Positions 10,738 to 42,982 of a stretch of 64,000 nucleotides of DNA are shown here, in pieces. The position numbers and the translations under genes were made by a program. The notes beneath the pieces were generated by a model. That model was not told the DNA's origin. It saw nothing but the letters and a program-made list of their open reading frames with translations, and made no database searches. Source of the stretch: an uncultured Lewinella sp. (GTDB lineage Bacteria > Bacteroidota > Bacteroidia > Chitinophagales > Saprospiraceae). The DNA is taken from positions 124,001 to 188,000 of the forward strand of contig CALMYQ010000101.1 in assembly GCA_937873655.1 (NCBI GenBank), written 5' to 3'. Within the stretch, counting starts at the first letter, position 1. Every line of letters begins with the position of its first letter.

Positions 10738-13506
10738 TTATGGCTTCGCCTTACCCAATTTCGGGATCGGTTTGCCGTTGGCGTCGATCAGGATGATCTC
10801 CAATCCGAGTTTTTCGAGTTCCGGCATCACCTTTTCTTTGTCGCCGACGACCATGAAGGACAACTGGTCCGGGTGGACGAGTTTCTTGGCCATATTTTGC
10901 ACGTCGCCAAGCTTCAGTTCGCGCACTTTCTGGTCGTACGTCTGGTAATAATCCTCCGGCAGATCATACTGCACCATGTTCACCAGCGAGCCCAGCACAG
11001 CGTTGTTGGTTTCCCATTGCCCCGGAAGCTGAAGGACGGTGTTTTGGGTCGTTTTTTCAAATTCGGCTTCGGTTACCGGCTTGTTGCCGACAATCTGCTG
11101 GAATTCCTTGGTGAATTCATCAATGGATTCTTTCGTCTTGTCGGTTTGGACTTGCGCGTAGGCTATCAGCGGCCGCTGTCCCTTGGCATTCTGGATGAAG
11201 GAATAGGCGCCGTAGGCCCAGTGTTTGTCCTCGCGAAGGTTCATGTTGATCCTGGAAGTGAACTGACCGCCGAATACGTCGATCATGGCCTCGCGTGCGA
11301 TTTCCGGGATTTGGCCGTAAGGCTCAACCAGGTAAGCGCCGACAACTACCGATTGCGGTGACTCGGGGCGGTCCATCAGGAAAAGTTTCCCTTTGTTTTC
11401 GGCCTCGTCCACTTTGGCAATATTTTTGGCGGGCACCTTGCCTTTCTGCCATTTACCGAAGCGGGCTTCCAGTTTCGGCAGGAGCTCATCCATGGTCAGG
11501 TCGCCCACCACAGCCAGGGTGGCGTTATTGGGTTTGAGCCAGTCGTTGTAATATTTGACCAGGTCTTCGCGGGTCATCGCCTGTACGGTTTCTTCATAGC
11601 CCGATCCCGGGGTGCTGTAGGGGTGTCCTTCGCCGTAGAGGAACTGCGGGAGGGTCCTGAAAGCCATTTGCACCGGGCTGGATTTTTCGCGTTTGATCTG
11701 AGCCAGGGTTTCATTTTTGAGCCGGTCAAACTCCGACTGCGGGAAAGCCGGGTTGAGCGCCACATCGGCGTACAGATCCAGGCTTTTGTCCAGAGTGGGC
11801 TTAAGCGTGTTCAGGCTGATGAAGGAAGCGTCCCTGCCTGCGCTGGCTCCGATCCCGGCGCCGAGGATCTGCAATTCCTCGCTGATCTCCAGCCCTGTGC
11901 GGGATTTGGTGCCCTCGTCCAGCATGTTCATGGCCAGCGAGGCGGTGCCCGGTTTGGCGGACTGGTCGGCAGCGGTACCGGCGTCGAACACCATGTTCAT
12001 GACCACGGTCGGCACGCCCGGCCGGCGGGCGAGTACCACTTTCATGCCGTTTTTGAGAGTAGCGTGCTGGAGGTCCGGGAATTTGGATTCCACAGGTTCA
12101 CCCATTTCGGGCAGGCCTTTATCGCGATCCACATCGGATGCGGTCACGGAATAATCCGGGAAAGGCGTGCAGGTGATGGTGTGCTTGCCCTGGGAAAGCC
12201 ATTTGGCGGCCGCCTTGCGGATATCTTCCGGGGTGGCCTTGGAAATGGTATTCAGGATTTTCTTGTAATAATCGGGCGAGCCGCCGTACACCTCGTTTTG
12301 GGCCAGGATATCCGATTTGCCGCCGAAGCCGCCGATACGTTCAAGACCTTTGATGAAGTTGGCGAAGTACTGGGACTTGGCGCGGTACAATTCGTTGTCC
12401 GTGGGGCCGTCTTTCAGGAATTTTTGCAATTCTTCGATCAGCACGCTTTCCACTTTTCCGATGTCCTGCCCCGGTTTTACATTCGCCTGAACAATGAAGT
12501 TGCCGGCAATTTCCTTGATCGAAACATAGGCATTGGCCGAGCTGGCGATCTGATCTTCGTAGACCAGGCGCTTGTAGAGGCGGGAATTCTTGCCCACAGA
12601 AAGAATGTCGGAAGCCAGGTCGAGATAAACGGCTTCGGGGGTTCCCCATTCCGGGACGTTCCAGAACATGGCTACGCGGGCTTCCGGGACGCGGTCCTGG
12701 TATTCCTCGCGCGTGTCGGCTGTGCGGACCGGGATATTGACCTCAGGCCGGACGATGGTCGGTCCCGATGGAATGTCGCCGAAATACCTGACCACTTTTT
12801 TATAGATTTCCTCGGCCTTGACGTCGCCGGCAATGACCAGAACGGCGTTGGCCGCACCGTAATAGGATTTGAACCATTGGTGCACGTCCTCCAGGGACGC
12901 GGCATTGAGGTCTTCCATTTCACCGATCGTCGTCCAGGAATAAGGGTGTCCTTTGGGGAACATGGCCTTGGTCATCAGGTCGAATTGCTTGCTGTAAGGT
13001 TGGTTGTCCCCCTGGCGTTTCTCATTTTGGACAACGCCGCGCTGCTCGTCCAGTTTGGCCTGGTCGATTGCGCCGAGGAGGTGGCCCATCCGGTCGCTTT
13101 CCAGCCAGAGCACCTGATCGAGGGAAGCCAGCGGCACGTTCTGGAAGTAGTTGGTGCGGTCGGTATTGGTGGTGCCGTTCAGGTCGGTGCCGCCGATCCG
13201 TTCCAGCACCTGGAAGTAATCGTCGTTGAAGTGTTCGCTGCCGTTGAACATCAGGTGTTCGAACAGGTGGGCGAAACCGCTTTTGCCGGGTTTCTCATTT
13301 TTGGAGCCGACATGGTACCAGACGTTGACCGCTGCGATGGGGGCCTTGTGATCTTCATGGACCACCAGGGTGAGGCCGTTCGGCAGTATGAACTTCTGGA
13401 AAGGAATGTCAATGTCGTCCGGTTTAAAATACATTTCGGACTGAGAGAAGACGGGCGCCGCCAGCGCAGCGCATAAGAGCGTCAGAAGGGTGAAACGTTT
13501 CAACAT
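10738..13506 (-). CDS. M16 family zinc metallopeptidase (two-domain, secreted)
   Basis: A 922-residue protein with a signal peptide (cleavage near residue 21) and two M16 (pitrilysin/insulinase-like) halves. The first half has the inverted zinc motif HLFEH (80-84) and the downstream Glu in VVQNEKRQ, so it should be catalytic. The second half begins near residue 480, lacks HxxEH (GTASLAMNMLDEG at that place) and is probably the inactive partner that closes the chamber. The domain pairing and length match bacterial periplasmic M16 peptidases, which degrade peptides and unfolded proteins. The gene is single. A palindrome AACCTG-N7-CAGGTT lies at 13541-13559, just upstream of the start, and could be an operator. 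No T9SS tail is present, so it probably stays in the periplasm. Confidence 0.95.
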   Translation of the reverse strand: MLKRFTLLTLLCAALAAPVFSQSEMYFKPDDIDIPFQKFILPNGLTLVVHEDHKAPIAAVNVWYHVGSKNEKPGKSGFAHLFEHLMFNGSEHFNDDYFQVLERIGGTDLNGTTNTDRTNYFQNVPLASLDQVLWLESDRMGHLLGAIDQAKLDEQRGVVQNEKRQGDNQPYSKQFDLMTKAMFPKGHPYSWTTIGEMEDLNAASLEDVHQWFKSYYGAANAVLVIAGDVKAEEIYKKVVRYFGDIPSGPTIVRPEVNIPVRTADTREEYQDRVPEARVAMFWNVPEWGTPEAVYLDLASDILSVGKNSRLYKRLVYEDQIASSANAYVSIKEIAGNFIVQANVKPGQDIGKVESVLIEELQKFLKDGPTDNELYRAKSQYFANFIKGLERIGGFGGKSDILAQNEVYGGSPDYYKKILNTISKATPEDIRKAAAKWLSQGKHTITCTPFPDYSVTASDVDRDKGLPEMGEPVESKFPDLQHATLKNGMKVVLARRPGVPTVVMNMVFDAGTAADQSAKPGTASLAMNMLDEGTKSRTGLEISEELQILGAGIGASAGRDASFISLNTLKPTLDKSLDLYADVALNPAFPQSEFDRLKNETLAQIKREKSSPVQMAFRTLPQFLYGEGHPYSTPGSGYEETVQAMTREDLVKYYNDWLKPNNATLAVVGDLTMDELLPKLEARFGKWQKGKVPAKNIAKVDEAENKGKLFLMDRPESPQSVVVGAYLVEPYGQIPEIAREAMIDVFGGQFTSRINMNLREDKHWAYGAYSFIQNAKGQRPLIAYAQVQTDKTKESIDEFTKEFQQIVGNKPVTEAEFEKTTQNTVLQLPGQWETNNAVLGSLVNMVQYDLPEDYYQTYDQKVRELKLGDVQNMAKKLVHPDQLSFMVVGDKEKVMPELEKLGLEIILIDANGKPIPKLGKAKP

Positions 13507-13815: not shown

Positions 13816-13851
13816 AAAAAAAACTGTCGCCCCGAAAAATCAAGGCGACAG
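13816..13851 (-). terminator. Intrinsic terminator with no upstream gene
   Basis: An 8-bp perfect stem with a 12-base loop, followed on the minus strand by T8 (complement of 13816-13823). The nearest upstream minus-strand gene start is more than 4 kb away, across a plus-strand gene block, so it should end a local transcript. Confidence 0.8.
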
Positions 13852-13942
13852 AACAGGAGACACCTAATCTCCTTTAAACAATTGAACACCCAATTGACCT
13901 ATATCTTTTCTTCTTTCGAAGTTTATGCTCTCGCTTTCAACA
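13816..13942 (-). ncRNA. Candidate small RNA (about 125 nt)
   Basis: The minus strand shows a perfect -7 box TATCTTTG (complement of 13946-13953), a 20-base spacer and TCTG at the -33 position (complement of 13974-13977). About 90-100 bases after the predicted start lies an intrinsic terminator: perfect 8-bp arms at 13824-13831 and 13844-13851 (CTGTCGCC/GGCGACAG) followed by eight T. A second hairpin (AGGAGA/TCTCCT, 13855-13860 and 13868-13873) precedes it. There is no convincing reading frame. I do not recognise 6S, SRP, tmRNA or RNase P motifs. The call rests on these signals only. Confidence 0.45.
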
Positions 13943-13945
13943 CTA

Positions 13946-13977
13946 CAAAGATAAGGCGGTTCACCACCGCGTTCAGA
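13946..13977 (-). promoter_or_regulatory. Promoter candidate for the small RNA
   Basis: Read on the minus strand: TCTG (complement of 13974-13977), a 20-base spacer, then TATCTTTG (complement of 13946-13953), an exact match to the Bacteroidota -7 consensus at the expected spacing. Confidence 0.5.
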
Positions 13978-14123
13978 TGATAAAAATCAGCATATCCGGT
14001 GATATTTATCCTTTTTCATTTCTTCCCGGCTATGTTAATTCAAGTTTAATATTAAAATAATTGACGCGCGAATGAATAGTTTTTACTAAAATTGATTCTC
14101 TTTGTTCGCAAAAGCCAAATAGA

Positions 14124-14966
14124 ATGAAAAAGATCCTTTTCCCGACAGATTTTTCTGACGCCTCCAACAAAGCCTTTATCTATGCGCTTCAGTTGGCCGG
14201 CAAAACCGGGGCTTCCATTACCACCATCCACGTATTCAAAAAACCGGACATTTCGGCCGTTCACCTGCCCGTAAGCCTTCAGGATTTCTACGACTCTGTG
14301 GATCTGTACGAGTTTGAAAGCTATAAGGATGCTATCCCCCCCCTGGTCGACATGGCCAACGCATACGGTTTCGGACATGTGGAACTGAACCACGTGCTGA
14401 AGGAAGGTGAGACCGTTGAAACGATCCTGAAAATAGCCGGGCAGGAGAAAGCTGACCTGATCGTGATGGGCACTACCGGCGCCCGGGGGCTCAAGGAGAT
14501 CTTCCTGGGCAGCGTTACCGGAGAGATCCTGGAAAATGCCTGCTGCCCGGTCCTGGCTGTGCCGGAGAAAAGCGATTTTGACGGGGTGATCGACAACATC
14601 GGATTCGCCACCAGCTACCACGAGGAGGAGCTGAAGGCCCTCGAAACGCTCTCCGCCCTTTTTGACGTGTTCAATCCCGAAATCCACTGCATCAACGTCG
14701 ACCTGTCGCATACCGAAGAAATAACCCATCAGATGGATAAATTTGCCGTGCACCTCAAGCAACACGGTAAAAACGTGTCGACCCACGTATTGGAAGGTAC
14801 GGATTTTCAGGAGGCCGTAACCGACTTTCTGGAGCAGAAACATATCGACCTGTTTGCCATGGTTACCCATAAGCGGAGTTTTATCCAGGAACTTTTCCAT
14901 TACAGCAAAACCAAAATGTTGTCCTACCACGCCAGTACCCCTGTCCTGGCCTTGCACGTTTCCTGA
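14124..14966 (+). CDS. Universal stress protein, tandem UspA domains
   Basis: A 280-residue cytoplasmic protein of two UspA folds. The first (residues 1-147) begins MKKILFPTDFSD and ends with the ATP-binding signature MGTTGARG then GSVTGEILENACCPVLAVP. The second (about 155-280) is degenerate: it keeps the fold (IGFATSYHEEELKALETL, VLEGTDFQEAVTDFLEQ) but its loop reads MVTHKRSFIQELFHYSKTKM, without the GxxGxxG pattern. Such double-Usp proteins are common in Bacteroidota and respond to starvation, redox or membrane stress. The gene is divergent from the small-RNA candidate and precedes the ABC/bshB1 group by 52 bases, so it could be the first gene of that operon, though a promoter may lie in the gap. 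Confidence 0.93.
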   Translation: MKKILFPTDFSDASNKAFIYALQLAGKTGASITTIHVFKKPDISAVHLPVSLQDFYDSVDLYEFESYKDAIPPLVDMANAYGFGHVELNHVLKEGETVETILKIAGQEKADLIVMGTTGARGLKEIFLGSVTGEILENACCPVLAVPEKSDFDGVIDNIGFATSYHEEELKALETLSALFDVFNPEIHCINVDLSHTEEITHQMDKFAVHLKQHGKNVSTHVLEGTDFQEAVTDFLEQKHIDLFAMVTHKRSFIQELFHYSKTKMLSYHASTPVLALHVS

Positions 14967-33648: not shown

Positions 33649-33786
33649 ATGGTTGCATCTGTGGGGATTTCCGGGCAATCAATTACCGGAGTATTTTTTT
33701 CCGGTAAGTTGACGCATATCAGATACCGGCTCCGGGCCGGGTAAACAAGGGTATCTTGTGGGTATCAATGACAACGCCACAGAAAC

Positions 33787-42053: not shown

Positions 42054-42884
42054 ATGAAAAGATCATTTCTATTGGCAATCCTTTTGTTTCCATTGGCTGT
42101 TTTTGCCCAGAAACTGGAATTGGGGGTCATGGGCGGGGGCGCCATCTACAGCGGCGATATCTCTCCGGACGAGTTCGGTGTCTATTTCAATCAGATCAAT
42201 CCGGCATTCGGCATTTTCGGCCGGCTGAACGTAGCCAAGCCGCTTTCCATCCGCCTGGGCATCACCAACGGCAAAGTGGACGGCGATGACATGGAAATCG
42301 GCCTGGAACAACGCGGACTCAATTTCAGAACCAACATATTCGAAGTTGCCCTGACGGCAGAGATCAATGTCGCACATGCCGGTAATGAAAAGGGCACGCA
42401 GTGGGTGCCTTATCTTTTCGGCGGCGGCGCCGTATACCATTTTGATCCGCAAGCCAAATTTGACGGCGACTATGTAAACCTGCAGCCCCTCGGCACCGAA
42501 GGACAAGGCCTTCCGGGGTATGAAGCCCCGTATAAACTCACCCAATTCGCCGTTCCGATGGGCGTCGGCATGCGATTCATTTTCAAGAACGCCTGGAGCC
42601 TCGGGTTCGAGTTCGGCGGAAGAAAACTCTTCACCGATTTCCTGGACGACGTATCCTCCAAAGAAGTGAATTACCTCGATATCCTGGAAGGCAACGGCAC
42701 CCTTGCAGCACAACTCAGCAACCCAAAGATCAAGGACACGCCGGATGCCAACCTGACCTATGTCAGGGGTGGGGAATACCAGGACTGGTATTATTTCGGC
42801 GGGGTGACCATCTCCTTTTACCTGGGCGGCGGCGGCGCCGGTTGGGGAAGCGGCAAGGGCATCGGCTGCCCTACCAATTTCTAG
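42054..42884 (+). CDS. DUF6089-type outer-membrane protein
   Basis: A 276-residue protein with a signal peptide (MKRSFLLAILLFPLAVFAQ, cleavage after residue 19). The mature part starts KLELGVMGGGAIYSGDIS and continues with barrel-like strands (FGRLNVAKPLSIRLGITNGKVDGDD, LNFRTNIFEVALTAEINV, PYLFGGGAVYHFDP) and a typical region AWSLGFEFGGRKLFTDFLDDVSSKEVNY. This is the pattern of the DUF6089 family, small outer-membrane beta-barrels of Bacteroidota of unknown function. The C-terminus YFGGVTISFYLGGGGAGWGSGKGIGCPTNF is Gly-rich. The gene appears single; the ArsC-like gene follows after 98 bases and has its own promoter-like element. Confidence 0.88.
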   Translation: MKRSFLLAILLFPLAVFAQKLELGVMGGGAIYSGDISPDEFGVYFNQINPAFGIFGRLNVAKPLSIRLGITNGKVDGDDMEIGLEQRGLNFRTNIFEVALTAEINVAHAGNEKGTQWVPYLFGGGAVYHFDPQAKFDGDYVNLQPLGTEGQGLPGYEAPYKLTQFAVPMGVGMRFIFKNAWSLGFEFGGRKLFTDFLDDVSSKEVNYLDILEGNGTLAAQLSNPKIKDTPDANLTYVRGGEYQDWYYFGGVTISFYLGGGGAGWGSGKGIGCPTNF

Positions 42885-42960: not shown

Positions 42961-42968
42961 TAAGTTTG
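42961..42968 (+). promoter_or_regulatory. Promoter -7 element of the ArsC-like gene
   Basis: TAAGTTTG matches TAnnTTTG exactly, 15 bases before the ATG at 42983. No clear TTG at -33. The leader would be very short (about 10 bases). Confidence 0.4.
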
Positions 42969-42982
42969 ACCTTTATCATTCT

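Follow-up and report, generated by a model that had tools for sequence, protein, structure and literature searches.

A predicted Crp/Fnr-controlled small RNA of Saprospiraceae with a near-invariant 19-nt core

On comparative sequence evidence, the minus strand between positions 13816 and 13941 of the window (the whole 64,000-nt stretch of DNA analysed here) encodes a genuine, hitherto uncatalogued regulatory RNA of Saprospiraceae, with a predicted length of ~126 nt. Our preferred reading, to which we give a probability of roughly 0.6, is that this is a Crp/Fnr-activated, Hfq-independent RNA whose core acts post-transcriptionally, with a logic like that of FnrS and an unrelated sequence. A stand-alone small RNA on this strand had been put forward in the first-pass annotation of the window, and homologues, covariation and promoter conservation all support it. 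The strongest features of the locus, a 19-nt core and two FNR-type palindromes, were overlooked in that annotation. The features, numbered by position in the window, are as follows.

13816..13941, minus strand: predicted small RNA of ~126 nt, supported by homologues, a covariance model and the fold z-score, with no gene overlapping
13816..13851, minus strand: intrinsic terminator, CUGUCGCC..GGCGACAG followed by T8; 96% of alignment cells paired
13873..13855, minus strand: post-core hairpin AGGAGAU-UAGGU-GUCUCCU; its sequence varies among homologues with pairing kept (covarying)
13881..13899, minus strand: near-invariant 19-nt core GGUCAAUUGGGUGUUCAAU, a likely functional contact region
13910..13921, minus strand: leader hairpin CTTC-GAAA-GAAG, not conserved among homologues
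13946..13953, minus strand: −7 box TATCTTTG, an exact TAnnTTTG, at the consensus position of PMC9723704
13978..13989, minus strand: proximal FNR-type palindrome TGATTTTTATCA (TGAY-N4-RTCA), centred at about −42.5, its position fixed in homologous promoters
14000..14011, minus strand: distal FNR-type palindrome GGATAAATATCA, lying 22 bp upstream of its proximal counterpart
14124..14966, plus strand: divergent gene for a universal stress protein (Usp), with a Usp homologue likewise divergent at 14 further loci

The start of the RNA at 13941 was inferred by setting the TAnnTTTG box at −12 to −5, where it is placed in Flavobacterium psychrophilum (PMC9723704), and its end is the T8 tract. The locus has its own promoter and its own terminator in the sequence, as expected of an independent small RNA (sRNA) gene, and no open reading frame or gene overlaps it. 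Its neighbours are an M16 peptidase gene, which starts at 13506 on the same (minus) strand 310 bp downstream, and the Usp gene, which starts at 14124 on the plus strand. The predicted fold is more stable than those of shuffled sequences (z = −4.1, 0/200). The terminator stem (13851..13824) comprises 12 pairs and a 4-nt loop and runs into the T8 at 13823..13816; the hairpin and T8 had been recognised correctly at first pass, but with a stem of 8 bp rather than 12 pairs. The second hairpin that had been placed ahead of the terminator is present at 13873..13855.

Homologues share one order of elements: a leader of 9–63 nt, the core, a hairpin whose sequence changes freely while its pairing is kept, and the terminator. 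At three loci (L009, L056 and L064) a single hairpin doubles as the terminator. Across 25 aligned homologues, 89.5% of cells in the alignment are paired, compared with 32–47% when the partners are slid; fitting the alignment to the structure has inflated these figures somewhat, but those for the slid controls are much lower. Compensatory changes in related genomes, which the first-pass annotation had suggested as a check, were found as double-sided changes in 18 of the 21 pairs (9/9 in the post-core helix and 9/12 in the terminator). A conserved RNA secondary structure with compensatory changes is well supported by these comparisons.

BLASTN searches of the 211-bp region against 60 relatives returned mostly chance matches, several of them on one short stretch that pointed to the core. 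Of 199 Saprospiraceae genomes, 21 contain the core (GGTCAATTGGGTGTTCAAT, 13899..13881, minus strand) with at most one mismatch, and none contains the reversed pattern. We used 24 loci to build a covariance model, which matched 29 of the 298 Saprospiraceae genomes sampled (E ≤ 1.1e-7), spread over 16 genera. One bearer of the RNA, at locus L066, is a cultured species, Phaeodactylibacter xiamenensis. An exact 20-mer scan of contigs of GTDB species gave 18 stretches, which, with the exception of one from Flavobacterium, were assigned to Saprospiraceae, Saprospirales, Phaeodactylibacter, Chitinophagales or MAGs of unspecified Bacteroidota or bacteria. We rejected the Flavobacterium stretch as a homologue; it reads as a coding frame without sRNA features, as do the core matches at L012 and L063, which we regard as chance. 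Sampling 298 genomes across the order turned up a single core match outside Saprospiraceae (L133/G501); having neither FNR-type sites nor a terminator, it was also set aside as chance. Because 29 of 298 genomes of the family match and the one match outside it is a chance one, the sRNA is, as judged from these searches, patchy but lineage-specific, found in Saprospiraceae only. The patchiness within the family counts against our preferred reading.

Searches of Rfam at gathering and permissive thresholds returned nothing credible (weak matches to PyrR, rimP and others had E values of 0.13 or worse), in agreement with the first-pass annotation, in which no known RNA family had been recognised. 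A search of the accessible literature pairing Saprospiraceae with sRNA found no paper. Two minor observations concern copy number. In one MAG, two contigs (L062 at its start and L073 at its end; also G320 C377 and C195) end inside or beside the sRNA, which hints at an assembly break or at two copies. One sRNA-bearing genome has an additional, weak match to the core region (G029:C88:18209-18243), possibly a paralogue or chance.

The TAnnTTTG 8-mer is uninformative alone, since its count in the window equals chance (26, with 25.7 expected), and the case for the RNA therefore had to rest on comparison. Across 27 distinct promoters, a proximal TGAY-N4-RTCA palindrome matching 6–8 of the 8 positions starts 35 bp (20 promoters) or 36 bp (7 promoters) before the TAnnTTTG-type box. 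With start sites inferred from the box position, its centre falls at −41.5 in the former and −42.5 in the latter; the region of −41.5 is the class II position of Crp/Fnr activators. A distal palindrome with 7–8 of 8 consensus positions is found in 26 of the 27, separated from the proximal one by 22 bp at 22 loci, 23 bp at 3 and 24 bp at 1. The palindromes in the window share the core of the published FNR-type motifs TTGAT-N4-ATCAA and TTGAC-N4-GTCAA (PMC1274295). The simple −33/−7 promoter proposed at first pass stands only in part. The −7 TAnnTTTG is exact and a −33-like TCTG does lie at 13977..13974 with a 20-base spacer, but the TCTG is not conserved among the 27 promoters, and in place of a −33/−7 pair there are tandem Crp/Fnr-type sites. 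The promoter looks activator-dependent, and its class II Crp/Fnr geometry is well supported by this comparison.

We extended the analysis to other promoters of the same layout. In eight sRNA-bearing genomes, TGAY-N4-RTCA followed after 22–25 bp by TAnnTTTG occurs at 101 sites, compared with 4 for a reversed-pattern control. The genes behind such promoters in two genomes encode a cobW/HypB-type protein, a heavy-metal P-type ATPase (ATPase-cat_bd, E1-E2), a metallo-beta-lactamase with rhodanese (Lactamase_B/Rhodanese) and a Pyr_redox oxidoreductase; other genes behind them presumably encode, as we read their sequences, a SulP-like transporter, a CBS-domain protein and the start of an Hsp20-like protein. 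The regulon content suggests control by oxygen limitation or sulfur-redox state, and we infer a low-oxygen, redox or sulfur signal because the same layout precedes genes related to respiration, hydrogenase and sulfur.

Candidate regulators are numerous. The genome to which the window belongs (G000) encodes six Crp-type regulators above the Pfam cut-off, among them two Crp/Fnr proteins with an E-x-x-S-R recognition helix (FNR-type) and two response-regulator fusions. Relatives of the first kind of E-x-x-S-R regulator were found in all 20 sRNA-positive genomes tested but also in 16 of 20 sRNA-negative genomes, so that co-occurrence does not discriminate. The regulator cannot be assigned in this way because most sRNA-negative genomes carry the same regulators and because at least two E-x-x-S-R proteins and two fusion proteins are present. 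In G077, a site with the TGAY-N4-RTCA/TAnnTTTG layout lies ~160 bp before a relative of the E-x-x-S-R regulator. The fusions, encoded at L191 and L195 (G000 C203 and C214), join response-regulator receiver domains to Crp/Fnr-type regulators. Most of the Saprospiraceae tested have relatives of these fusions; G021, G034, G036 and G066 lack both such relatives and the FNR-like regulator.

We propose the following mechanism. A Crp/Fnr-family dimer bound to TGAY-N4-RTCA at −41.5/−42.5, the class II position, would activate the TAnnTTTG promoter, a step with strong comparative support, and a second dimer, usually 22 bp further upstream, would assist it. The activator may sense low oxygen or a related redox or sulfur signal. 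The product, as predicted from the homologues, would be an RNA carrying the near-invariant 19-nt core, followed by a hairpin of conserved structure and then an intrinsic terminator. The core would then pair with mRNAs without Hfq, retuning their expression for as long as the regulator is active, a regulatory logic like that of FnrS.

FnrS of Escherichia coli is an anaerobic sRNA activated by FNR and ArcA (PMC10993149). The Saprospiraceae RNA resembles it in being short and stand-alone, with an intrinsic terminator and control by an FNR-type activator, here predicted from sequence, but differs in its phylum and promoter type, in having no Rfam match and in the failure to detect Hfq. We rate it as a new family of a known kind and not, having no Rfam match, as a member of FnrS. 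PaiI of Pseudomonas aeruginosa is reported to be another anaerobically induced sRNA in an oxygen and nitrogen-oxide regulatory setting, but one that requires NarXL (PMC5703892). Within the same phylum, Rfp18 of F. psychrophilum is, by its description, likewise a conserved structured intergenic RNA; it affects metalloprotease mRNAs, and the main text of the paper mentions no Crp/Fnr (PMC9723704), whereas the family described here was found in Saprospiraceae only. Reconstructions of the HcpR, DNR and FNR regulons share the palindrome core and the 4-bp spacer but concern protein genes in other taxa (PMC1274295).

For this sRNA family the activator geometry is defined, the 19-nt core is fixed and the regulon can be described by one pattern (TGAY-N4-RTCA, 22–25 bp, TAnnTTTG). 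To our knowledge, few Bacteroidota small RNAs have been assigned to a regulator. If the preferred reading is true, the coupling of a Crp/Fnr-type regulator to an sRNA would also have arisen where no Hfq is recognisable, which would raise the question of what replaces Hfq in Saprospiraceae. We offer as a speculative and rather unlikely reading that the RNA could be a lineage-specific arm of the Crp/Fnr response, probably to low oxygen or sulfur-redox state, in Bacteroidota lacking a recognisable Hfq, with the core working either through an RNA-binding protein or by a new Hfq-free riboregulation.

Of 24 aligned loci, 21 have an identical core; L041, L042 and L043 differ by one change each, and the later-found L094/L096 by two. 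The core is likely to be the functional contact region of the RNA, although it is predicted to be only about half unpaired, which counts against our preferred reading. The Pfam Hfq model found no match in 40 Saprospiraceae genomes, whereas five control genomes were positive, and pairing would therefore be Hfq-independent or depend on another protein. Searching 25 genomes for antisense matches with GAACACCCAATTGACC (at most two mismatches) gave 129 non-self matches compared with 48 for the reversed control, an excess that composition may explain. In the 42 contexts read of 60 fetched, long matches only, few matches were near start codons, no gene recurred and no clear target emerged, which likewise counts against our preferred reading.

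These observations bear on the main rival reading, in which the RNA is still under Crp/Fnr control but the core is the site of an RNA-binding protein, acting by titration or within a protein–RNA complex, instead of an antisense seed. We judge this unlikely, while taking it seriously: the near-invariant stretch of 19 nt is longer than typical seeds, the alignment shows no covarying partner of the core, neither antisense target enrichment nor Hfq was found, and the core could fold into a weak AUUG..CAAU hairpin around a GGUGUU loop. However, the variants in L041, L042 and L043 weaken this small hairpin, and no candidate protein was identified.

The genomic setting argues for the sRNA as a unit of its own. 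Of the 34 loci whose neighbourhoods were compared, some being truncated or repeats from a single genome, 15, the window included, have a Usp homologue on the divergent side. Other loci have unrelated neighbours. Because neighbours are unrelated at several loci, the sRNA appears to be independent of them. This makes it very improbable that it is part of a longer mRNA, whether as the leader or attenuator of the M16 gene or as the 3′ end of a gene lying upstream. The short distance to the same-strand M16 gene, similar in L094/L096, and a Kelch-like gene just upstream on the same strand at ~15 other loci would fit such an arrangement, but the RNA is bounded by a promoter of its own and a strong terminator, and the neighbours differ completely between loci.

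Even less credible is a micro-ORF within the core (AUG GUC AAU UGG GUG UUC AAU, MVNWVFN) encoding a leader or regulatory peptide. The core does follow AU, giving AUG, at 21 of 26 loci, but an in-frame stop UAG is present in the window and in L061, and three more loci have AAG or AUA and no start. There are no synonymous wobble changes, the changes observed are nonsynonymous and the reading frame is not maintained beyond the core. The synonymy test is biased to identity, the loci having been found by a DNA pattern, whereas the missing start codons are unaffected by this. We therefore reject the micro-ORF; the constraint on the core is most readily explained if it acts on the RNA itself. There is equally little chance that the palindromes mainly serve the Usp gene, with the RNA a by-product: the window and several loci do have Usp as their divergent neighbour, but the palindromes keep a spacing of 35–36 bp from the sRNA −7 box even without an adjacent Usp gene, and the core and structure of the RNA are conserved.

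Some further observations concern the neighbouring genes and the window. A search of the Usp protein against viral contigs gave no match. At a number of loci a gene for a small Thioredoxin_3 protein lies near the divergent Usp gene, for example at L060 and L052, ~225–495 bp upstream of the core on the opposite strand, and the neighbourhood suggests a conserved Usp/thioredoxin stress cluster. The gene upstream of the sRNA at ~15 loci (L201:3259 in G122; L058, L069, L072 and L074) encodes a secreted-looking, weakly Kelch-like protein of ~258 aa, and in a few to several loci it is preceded by a tandem FNR-type promoter of its own, spaced in the same way. In the window as a whole, TGAY-N4-RTCA is over-represented, with 10 occurrences compared with 3.2 expected (0/100 shuffles), for example at 33710-33721, 42754-42765 and 42967-42978.
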